Assembly: GCF_900198835.1 (NCBI RefSeq)
Contig: NZ_LT900021.1
Span: 682,001 to 746,000 of the forward strand
Reading direction: 5' to 3'
DNA: 64,000 bases
DNA from: Thermococcus henrietii
Lineage (GTDB): Archaea; Methanobacteriota_B; Thermococci; Thermococcales; Thermococcaceae
The translations under genes and the position numbers were made by a program. The notes under the pieces are model-generated. The model saw only the letters and a program-made list of their open reading frames with translations. It did not search any database and was not told the DNA's origin. Positions 22,366 through 52,624 of the stretch are shown piece after piece. The stretch's first letter is position 1, and every line of letters begins with the position of its first letter.

Positions 22366-22443
22366 GGGCCGGTAGCTCAGCCTGGTTAGAGCGCGGGGCT
22401 TTTAACCCCGTGGCCGCGGGTTCGAATCCCGCCCGGCCCGCCA
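22366..22443 (+). tRNA. tRNA-Lys (TTT)
   Basis: A complete cloverleaf: acceptor GGGCCGG pairs with CCGGCCC, the anticodon loop CTTTTAA gives anticodon TTT, the T arm contains GGTTCGAATCC, and CCA is encoded. No intron. A perfect 10-bp hairpin begins only 2 nt after the CCA (22446), which opens hairpin island 1. Confidence 0.97.
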
Positions 22444-23039
22444 TAGAAACTTTTGCCGAGCAAAAGTTTCATCAAAGTTCGTGATTCCCTTTTGAAAAAA
22501 GCTTATTCTTTGAGTGGATTTCTTTTTGAGTTTGCTTCTTTGGAGAGTGAATTCCTTTAAAAGCGTCTTTTAAAGGGGTTCAAGCCTTTTTTGCGCTCCT
22601 TCGGAGCGCGGTTTAAGTAGAACCCGTGTGAGGGAGTCCTTAGAGTGTGAATTCAAACTCTCAACGGCTGACTTGATTTTGAAATCCTTTGAAGAGGAGC
22701 CCTAAAGAGGAATCACAAGCTTTTTGGTGAAGCTTTCTCAAAGCTTGCTGGCGAAAAGTTTGACCAAAAGTGTTTGACTATTCAAAAAGTAGAGTTTATA
22801 GTTCGTGCACGTCAAGGGGTGTCTCTTGTTGGGAGTTTCTTTTGGACTTGCTCTTTCGAGAGTGTTTCACTCCCCAAACGGTGTCCAAAAGACGCCAAAA
22901 ATGAGTTGAAATTGTTTCACTGGGCCCCTTTAATGTTAAACTTACGTTGGACTCTTTAATTAGAGAGTGCACGATTGGCTTCTTGCTCTTTGGTGAGAAA
23001 GGGCGCTTTTTTCGCCAGCCTTTTCCAAAGGCTGTTGTA

Positions 23040-23122
23040 AAGCTTGTTCGCCTGTGCGACGTCGAGCTCTGCTCGACGCGAGGGATGAAAGTCCCGCAGA
23101 GTTTGACCAAGGTCGGTGATTC
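23040..23122 (-). repeat. 83-nt module, inverted copy of 51858-51940
   Basis: The reverse complement of this segment aligns without gaps to 51858-51940 with 8 mismatches, mostly transitions. It contains the CGTCGAG/CTCGACG hairpin and the ACCTTGGTCAAACTCTG stretch. Non-coding in both places. Confidence 0.85.
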
Positions 23123-23334
23123 TCTTCTAAGAATGCAATTCTAAGAAGTTTGCACTCTCAAATGATAGTGCTCTCAAAGAATTCTCTTCGAGGAACCCTC
23201 TGGGAGGGTTCTCTAAGAAGCGCTCCTTCAGAGCGCGAGAAAAAGTAAACCCAAGCGAGAAAGCTTCTAAAATTTAGGAATTCGCATTCCAAAAAGCCGT
23301 TAAAAGCGCAAACACTCCAAAAGGAACCCCTACA

Positions 23335-23380
23335 AAAAGAATCACAAACTTTGATGAAGCTTTGTGAAGGCAAAGTTTCC
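23335..23380 (-). repeat. 46-nt module, exact inverted copy of 52242-52287
   Basis: The reverse complement is identical over 46 nt to 52242-52287. It contains GGAAACTTTGCC, GCTTCATCAAAG and GTTTGTGATTC in that order. It begins a collinear run of shared blocks between islands 1 and 3. Confidence 0.9.
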
Positions 23381-42493: not shown

Positions 42494-43394
42494 CGGCCCT
42501 TGCTGACGCAAGCGCCGGCGGAAGATTTAGTGCCTTTTTAGAATTTTGCTGATTTTTCATTGGGGGTTCTCTGTGTGTCCCAGGTAACGGGTGTTTCTCT
42601 CTTTGAAGGCGCCCGATGGGCGCCGATATTGAAGTCGAAACTATCTCAAAGGACTTTAGTTTGATTTAACCCCATCTCAGCTTGCTCTTTTGTTAGTGCA
42701 CGATTGACCTTTCGCCTATGAGTAAGAAGGGCACTCTTTGGTCAAACTTTGCTTTGCAAAGTTTGTTAGCCTGCGCGAAGTTTCATCAAGGTTTGTAGCT
42801 CCCTTCTAAAGTTCATTTTTTAAGGATTTTCTTAATTAACATGGCTCTTTTTGGATGGGATTATATTGAATGCCTTTTAGTGTGGGTTTAAATTTAAATT
42901 GACGCCCTTCGGGCGTCGGGAAGAGAGTAAACCCTTTTTGAGAGGAACCATTTGGATTCTTCCCCTTTGAGCATTATGCAATTTTGTGAGCAAAATCCCT
43001 GGAATGGGTTTTTGGTAGTGAGCTACTAACTTTTGGTGAAGCTTTTTCCAAAAGCTTCCTGTACTCTCAAACCCCCTGAGTGGGGCTTCGCCCCACGTTA
43101 GGAAACTTTGTCAAGCAAAGTTCATCAAAGCCAGCATGCCTCTTAAATGGCTTGTTCTCAGGGGGTTTACTTCCAAACCTGCCAGTTTTGAATGTGTTTT
43201 CCTCCCGTTAGCGCCCTTCGGGCGCTCTTTTAAGTTAAACACCTTCTCCAGGAGATATTGTAAGTGTAAACCCCGAACCAGTGGACTGCTTGATAACGCA
43301 TGCAACTTTCCTTTTGTCCTTTTTGACAGTTAAACCCTTTTGGTCAAGCTTTGCGGGAGCAAAGGTTGATAAACCCCTCAACGAAGCACCGCAC
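42494..43394. repeat. hairpin-mosaic island 2, gene-free, between cbf5 and a methyltransferase
   Basis: About 0.9 kb with no convincing gene. GC-rich 17-nt hairpins (7-bp stem, 3-nt loop) lie at 42608-42624, 42901-42917 (identical to 23566-23582), 43080-43096 and 43210-43226. AT-rich hairpins lie at 42743-42765 (10-bp stem) and 43038-43058 (9-bp stem). Tail motifs ATCAAGGTTTGTAGCTC (42784) and its inverted form (43014) are present. 43061-43099 is an inverted near-copy of 23382-23420. GTGCACGATTG recurs here and in island 1, and GCATGCCTCTTAAA recurs in island 3. Confidence 0.8.
43061..43099 (+). repeat. 39-nt module shared inverted with 23382-23420
   Basis: One mismatch against the reverse complement of 23382-23420. 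It contains GTACTCTCAAACCCCC and the hairpin GTGGGGC-TTC-GCCCCAC. Confidence 0.9.
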
Positions 43395-51940: not shown

Positions 51941-52241
51941 TTGGTAAAAGCTTGACCAAAATGATCAAACCCTCACAGGGGGTAAAGATAGAGTGCATGC
52001 CTCTTAAAGTAACTCGTTGGTTTTTGGGTTTGCTTTGATAAGGGCTTTTGAGAGAGGTGTTTAAACTCGAAACGCGCCCGAAGGGCGCTAATTGAGAAAA
52101 CACCCTCAAAAATTGCGAGTTTTAAGCCAAACTCATCTGAAAATGAACCCTTTAAAAAAGCATGCTTCACTTTGATGAAACTTTTCACAAGAAAAGTTTC
52201 CCCGCCAGCGCTGAAGCTTTTGAAAAAAAAAGCTTCACCAA

Positions 52242-52287
52242 GGAAACTTTGCCTTCACAAAGCTTCATCAAAGTTTGTGATTCTTTT
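52242..52287 (+). repeat. 46-nt module, exact inverted copy of 23335-23380
   Basis: Identical over 46 nt. Shared blocks of 22 nt (52307-52328 against 23292-23313) and 27 nt (52470-52496 against 23128-23154) follow in the same order, with nearly equal spacing. Confidence 0.9.
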
Positions 52288-52546
52288 AACGGGGTGTTTT
52301 GAGAGGGTTTGCGCTTTTAACGGCTTTTGTAGATTGTGAATTCTCCGGATTTTGAGAGCTCTCTCACACGGGTTTACTTTTCTCGCGCTCCGGGGGAGCG
52401 CCTCTTAGAGAAAACCCCCCAAAGGACTCTCTTAAAGAGAATTCTGCAGAGAAGATGGCCGTTTGAAAATGCAAACTTCTTAGAATTGCATTCTTAACGA
52501 AGAATCACAAACCTTGGTCAAACTTCGCCTGCGCGAAGTTTGTAAC

Positions 52547-52624
52547 TGGCGCCCCGGCGGGGATTTGAACCCCGGACCTCGAGGTCCGCAGCCTCGCGCC
52601 CTATCCAGACTAGGCCACCGGGGC
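52547..52624 (-). tRNA. tRNA-Arg (GCG)
   Basis: On the minus strand: acceptor GCCCCGG/CCGGGGC, anticodon stem CGAGG/CCTCG with loop CTGCGGA (anticodon GCG), T arm GGTTCAAATCC, CCA encoded. Hairpin island 3 begins 4 nt after the CCA. Confidence 0.96.

Follow-up and report, generated by a model that had tools for sequence, protein, structure and literature searches.

The window, that is, the whole stretch of DNA analysed here, comprises 64,000 nucleotides (positions 682001-746000) of the single-contig Thermococcus henrietii genome of 2,155,760 bp. In its island 3, a tRNA-Arg(gcg) gene on the minus strand turns its 3' end toward a quasi-palindrome of about 258 bp, which is composed of a central GC hairpin and four more complementary block pairs. 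Such repeat units come in two main types, A and B, and these were searched with separate models (R1 for type A, R2 for type B), a joint alignment of both having shifted the core by one base. The features of island 3 are the following, together with the other units of the window:

52242..52266, + strand: left linker, an imperfect hairpin (GGAAACTTTG..CAAAGCTTC)
52264..52521, + strand (best R1 orientation): the type A unit under study, R1 225.8 bits, E 1e-48, with edges TTCATCAA / TTGGTCAA
52277..52283, + strand: left terminal block GTGATTC, pairing with GAATCAC at 52502-52508
52307..52312, + strand: block 2, GTTTGC, pairing with GCAAAC at 52471-52476; covaries with GATTTC/GAAATC
52338..52343, + strand: block 3, GAATTC, pairing with GAATTC at 52439-52444; covaries
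52370..52375, + strand: block 4, GGGTTT, pairing with AAACCC at 52412-52417; covaries with GGGTTC/GAACCC
52385..52401, + strand: core hairpin GCGCTCC-GGG-GGAGCGC, swapped as a pair for GACGCCC/GGGCGTC in type B
52519..52542, + strand: right linker hairpin CAAACTTCGC-CTGC-GCGAAGTTTG, with 10-bp arms, connecting the unit to the tRNA end
52547..52624, - strand: tRNA-Arg(gcg), CCA 3' end toward the unit 52264..52521
51952..52179, - strand: second, shorter unit of island 3, R1 52.6 bits (56.9 on the + strand for 51961-52193)
22468..22731, + strand: type A unit, 24 nt behind tRNA-Lys(ttt) at 22366-22443
23103..23358, - strand: type A partner copy in island 1, R1 208.7 bits
23441..23703, - strand: type B unit in island 1, R2 214.2 bits
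42782..43040, + strand: type B unit in island 2, R2 188.8 bits
43121..43347, + strand: short unit in island 2, R1 45.8 bits

When the minus strand of 23040-23380 is compared with the plus strand of 52242-52541, five common blocks follow in the same order and at near-constant spacing (52242-52541 against 23095-23380), as the preliminary description had proposed. They consist of an exact block of 46 nt, an exact block of 22 nt, the 17-nt GC hairpin (GCGCTCTGAAGGAGCGC / GCGCTCCGGGGGAGCGC), an exact block of 27 nt and GAATCACnnACCTTGGTCAAAC, and the spacers between them measure 21/19, 55/56, 65/68 and 5/5 nt. In a search of the own genome, the two copies display 80% identity over 281 nt (E = 1e-62). 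This similarity is far beyond chance, and the pair represents two copies of one dispersed repeat. The spacers, thought at first to have largely diverged, are still 67, 77, 74 and 60% identical in this pair, and the extent had been set too short: the conserved edges lie at 52264-52521 and hairpin linkers flank both sides. Genome-wide, the unit under study has nine near-full copies (itself included) with 75-100% identity and some fifteen short ones. To oppose a conserved structure to a recent copy was too simple, as we are dealing with a dispersed repeat family with ongoing exchange, in which identical stretches as long as 289 bp recur between the islands of this genome, in both relative orientations.

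The geometry of the unit is fixed. A mechanical screen for a central GC hairpin flanked by TTSAYCAA...TTGRTSAA edges recovered 64 distinct full-size units, nearly all of 253-269 nt, in which the core hairpin lies about 121 nt from either edge (range 116-128 nt). The five block pairs are found at about 113, 82, 50, 20 and 5 nt from the unit centre, the outer ones being about 31 nt apart. Type A units carry the ends GTGATTC/GAATCAC and the core GCGCTCC/GGAGCGC; in type B the terminal pair is replaced by GTAGCTC/GAGCTAC or GTGGTTC/GAACCAC and the core by GACGCCC/GGGCGTC. Arm length changes by a step of about 30 nt: in shorter units, of about 200 and 230 nt, one arm or both measure about 92 nt. 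In three units of this kind (L018 1760-1988, L019 1522-1751 and 2040-2242; about 200-230 nt), the arms measure about 92 instead of 121 nt; the shortening is sometimes one-sided and resembles the loss of a block of about 30 nt. The units of this genome lack long ORF structure and are multicopy, intergenic and palindromic over their full length.

Within this geometry, the paired blocks covary. Standard pairs occupy 96.3% of the block-pair cells in type A (40 units), and double changes are found in 55 cells, against 20.7 in shuffles (none of 500 reaching 55) and 3-13 with a slid partner; in type B (20 units) they number 15 for 5.5 expected, and in all these counts independent compensatory events are few because subfamilies share changes. 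Left and right blocks of type A pair better within a unit than between units, by 461 to 30 informative comparisons of within- with between-unit pairing for block 2 and by 349 to 19 for block 3. On the other hand, the four spacer segments exhibit no covariation, and their within-unit pairing equals their between-unit pairing, which lends no support to a continuous 120-bp stem under selection. Since the blocks covary and the spacer segments do not, the blocks appear to be held by pairing and the spacers to keep their length alone. The idea of a conserved fold was largely right: spacing is kept and paired blocks covary in some 60 units of many Thermococcus genomes, though the spacers do not. Freely varying spacer lengths without any covarying pair were looked for as well, and the opposite was seen.

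The distance of about 31 bp between outer blocks, close to three helical turns, and the presence of about 20 AT-rich islands per 2.1 Mb would suit a chromosome-architecture element, namely a putative SMC, TrmBL2 or histone site. However, the left and right blocks vary jointly from one subfamily to another, a coupling that a fixed DNA-binding protein would not need, and we consider this explanation improbable.

Several features would agree with transcription of each unit into a structured non-coding RNA of about 260 nt. Beside the covarying block pairs, the predicted fold of the unit 52264..52521 is stable, with -97.2 kcal/mol (z -6.1) on the plus strand and -81.8 kcal/mol (z -4.7) on the minus strand. 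Moreover, once units are brought into a common orientation by homology, most of them have more G.T than A.C oppositions, so that the G.U-friendly strand is constant in the family (seen at 22468, 23103, 42782 and in most other units). On this strand, the mismatches of the palindrome are largely G.T and scarcely ever A.C, as at 42782 with 23 to 1. The polarity is a property of the unit, independent of the direction of the neighbouring tRNA, and would fit a founder effect or the use of one strand as RNA or single-stranded DNA. A replication-strand mutation bias is an unlikely cause, given that units 22468 and 23103 of the same island are G.T-rich on opposite strands; that units of one island point opposite ways also weakens the RNA explanation. 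For the genomes compared below, the presumed identities are T. kodakarensis KOD1 (G011), T. sp. 4557 (G013), T. onnurineus (G021), T. gammatolerans (G015) and T. sp. AM4 (G005). All eight units tested in G011 have their friendly strand antisense to the tRNA, an opposite polarity that also lends no support to a readthrough RNA selected in the tRNA direction. Spacers without covariation and the lack of an identified promoter weigh further against an RNA of this kind, as does Rfam, where strict and permissive searches placed the units nowhere above chance and no gathering threshold was passed. Such a transcript looks improbable. Linker motifs resembling hammerheads and kink-turns were weighed by eye and dropped.

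The family is strict in its position. About 40 units were detected in this genome, in 19 islands, and at least two further short units behind tRNAs (after 602740 and 859481) escaped the genome search. Of the islands here, 13/19 begin no more than 60 nt from a tRNA 3' end, as do 8/16 (several more being hidden by merged neighbouring units) and 10/14 in two other genomes, for an expectation of 0.02 under random placement; none was found at a tRNA 5' end in the three genomes. The junction is exact: CCA, 3-4 bases, one of three linker hairpins (GAAACTTT..AAAGTTTC, CAAACTTCGC..GCGAAGTTTG or CAGCCCTTTC..GAAAGCGCTG), then the unit. Most islands without a tRNA follow an equivalent, either a tRNA 3' half, an H/ACA RNA or a C/D RNA. 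One unit stands right behind the H/ACA RNA Pab160 (L121 2968-3062) and another, in G005, right behind the C/D RNA sR36 (L138 2161-2227), while five islands in three genomes follow the 3' half of a tRNA, with an SSV-type integrase gene nearby. At these last islands (L106 3277-4203; L119 3360-4460; G011 63200 and 320419; G021 257258), the integrase gene starts directly beside the island, which remains outside the integrated element, on the side of the tRNA half. Three islands of this genome (L111 2820-3700, L113 3068-3400 and L118 2960-4200) have no recognised RNA gene at either edge and may follow an undescribed small RNA.

This strict placement behind three kinds of RNA gene, never before tRNA genes, is what would be expected of a host-functional 3'-end module, acting as bidirectional terminator, insulator or 3'-processing signal behind strongly transcribed stable-RNA genes; mirror symmetry would then reflect action from both sides, and rearrangements would be a side effect. 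The first-entered arm is indeed T-rich (35-40% T compared with 26-27% behind other tRNAs), T runs of at least 4 are enriched in type A (3.2 per arm against 2.1 in shuffles), and different species often have islands behind the same tRNAs. Within 120 nt, T5 tracts accompany 10/16 island tRNAs and 6/20 controls, two of the latter carrying short units. Yet T runs of at least 5 hardly exceed composition, more than half of the tRNA genes have no island, and a terminator has no need of 120-nt arms with constant geometry. We regard a host function of this type as possible, with odds clearly against it.

R1 matches (E <= 1e-6) are present in nearly all sampled Thermococcus genomes, about 58/61, and also in part of the sister genera. 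Another genus of the family, probably Pyrococcus, gave none in nine genomes, and a DNA search of 16 genomes from other families of the class gave no match. Two non-Thermococcus MAGs gave weak, short matches only (53-74 nt). It is certain that a genus-wide structured repeat family is fixed to stable-RNA 3' ends. It is apparently undescribed: no account of it was found in the part of the literature covered, and its novelty is provisional.

Terminal inverted repeats in many copies raise the question of a non-autonomous transposon, MITE-like or single-strand, which would target stable-RNA 3' ends via a putative transposase or integrase. At the same tRNA, which is often occupied across species, linkers and units differ, as mobility would predict, and the constant preference for G.T over A.C would be expected if one strand were used in folded form. 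Against this, no autonomous partner was recognised among the Y1 transposase and SSV-type integrase families searched. Y1 transposase (PF01797) is absent from G000, G005, G013, G015 and G021, with one copy in G011. T. gammatolerans has been described as being without transposase genes (PMC2718504). No target-site duplication is seen at the tRNA junctions, and plasmids and phages gave no copy. Carriage by a virus or plasmid was rejected on this last ground, eight viral-contig matches being to an 18-mer without a unit. A transposon of this sort seems somewhat less probable still than a host function.

Islands of this genome share exact sequence extensively: 42 of 171 island pairs have at least 40 identical bases. 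An identity of 289 bases links the tRNA-Leu(caa) island (L114 2749-3135) to the tRNA-Leu(gag) island (L122 3013-3398), which suggests that gene conversion or duplication took place recently. Island positions also coincide with rearrangement breakpoints. Island flanks have their homologues at islands in 14/38 cases in G011 and 8/38 in G005, compared with 0/24 for controls, the control being one 40-kb set of 24 stretches from the same window and the flank pairs few. For the island under study, the left flank is found at the Arg-cct island of G011 and the tRNA side at its Arg-gcg island; for the L106 and L122 islands as well, the two flanks lie at two different G011 islands, while both sides are syntenic for L114 and L120. 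Between G013 and G021, 14 kb are collinear except for a flipped tRNA-Arg(gcg)/Gly(gcc) pair, which in G013 sits between two inverted units. The Thr/Asn/Met cluster is flipped as well, and the Gln(ttg) island has its far side at another island.

These breakpoints may bear on a known puzzle. Thermococcus chromosomes reshuffle unusually fast though insertion sequences are rare, and published inversions lie at tRNA genes too dissimilar for the reaction in vitro (PMC2718504, PMC5495485). According to Cossu et al. (PMC5495485), the pTN3 integrase accepts 104-bp identities and inversions end at tRNA genes, and between T. onnurineus and T. sp. 4557 the endpoints fall at tRNA pairs too dissimilar for the integrase. 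Islands behind such dissimilar tRNAs would supply the identity, although no unit was seen at tRNA-Leu(taa) of G013. As judged from sequence comparison, the repeat family is likely a hub of recombination.

Our preferred reading, to which we give a probability of roughly 0.55, is that of a non-coding, hairpin-forming interspersed repeat at stable-RNA 3' ends, which recombination homogenises and which provides the homology for inversions. The unit would form a long hairpin with interruptions, five short helices keeping it together, as a cruciform, as single-stranded DNA or as RNA. It would have no gene, and its spread and homogenisation would be due mainly to exchange between islands by recombination and gene conversion. 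As near-identical stretches are carried in both orientations by some 20 islands, recombination between them would flip tRNA cassettes and larger parts of the chromosome; the agent could be RadA of the host, or a pTN3-type integrase taking about 104 bp of identity. The missing inversion homology would come from a repeat that stands behind at least a third of the tRNA genes, and the family is also an example of spacing and pairing kept genus-wide while sequence turns over. Counting against this reading, recombination alone accounts neither for block covariation nor for placement behind stable-RNA genes, and SSV-type tyrosine integrase genes occur in only 4/6 genomes. A bolder version, which we hold to be rather doubtful, would see in the islands a dedicated, selected recombination system of Thermococcus, where pairing keeps units exchangeable and thereby flips tRNA cassettes and chromosome arms. 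If true, it would be the missing cause of scrambled Thermococcus gene order and of inversions ending at non-homologous tRNA genes.

ERIC and BIME/REP of enterobacteria are non-coding, intergenic, multicopy imperfect palindromes, which form hairpins and are clustered. The Thermococcus units are likewise multicopy, intergenic, non-coding, palindromic and clustered, with hairpin pairing conserved in blocks, but they differ by their size of about 260 bp, their five spaced block pairs, their attachment to stable-RNA 3' ends and their archaeal host. In contrast to REP/BIME associated with RAYT, the Y1 transposase is missing in 5/6 Thermococcus genomes. MITEs and other non-autonomous elements with terminal inverted repeats are short, non-coding and dispersed. 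The Thermococcus units share these properties, terminal inverted repeats included, whereas neither a related transposase, among the families searched, nor a target-site duplication was found, and their interior is palindromic too. As in SSV-type integration, the 3' half of tRNA genes is the site of action (PMC8371274), but the islands have no integrase and no copy of the tRNA end, and they lie behind the tRNA half, outside integrated elements. Finally, in the available part of the IntpTN3 work, the common stretches are tRNA and other paralogous genes and repeats behind tRNAs are not mentioned (PMC5495485); what the islands would share with it is inversion between short, identical, oppositely oriented sequences, frequently located at tRNA genes.
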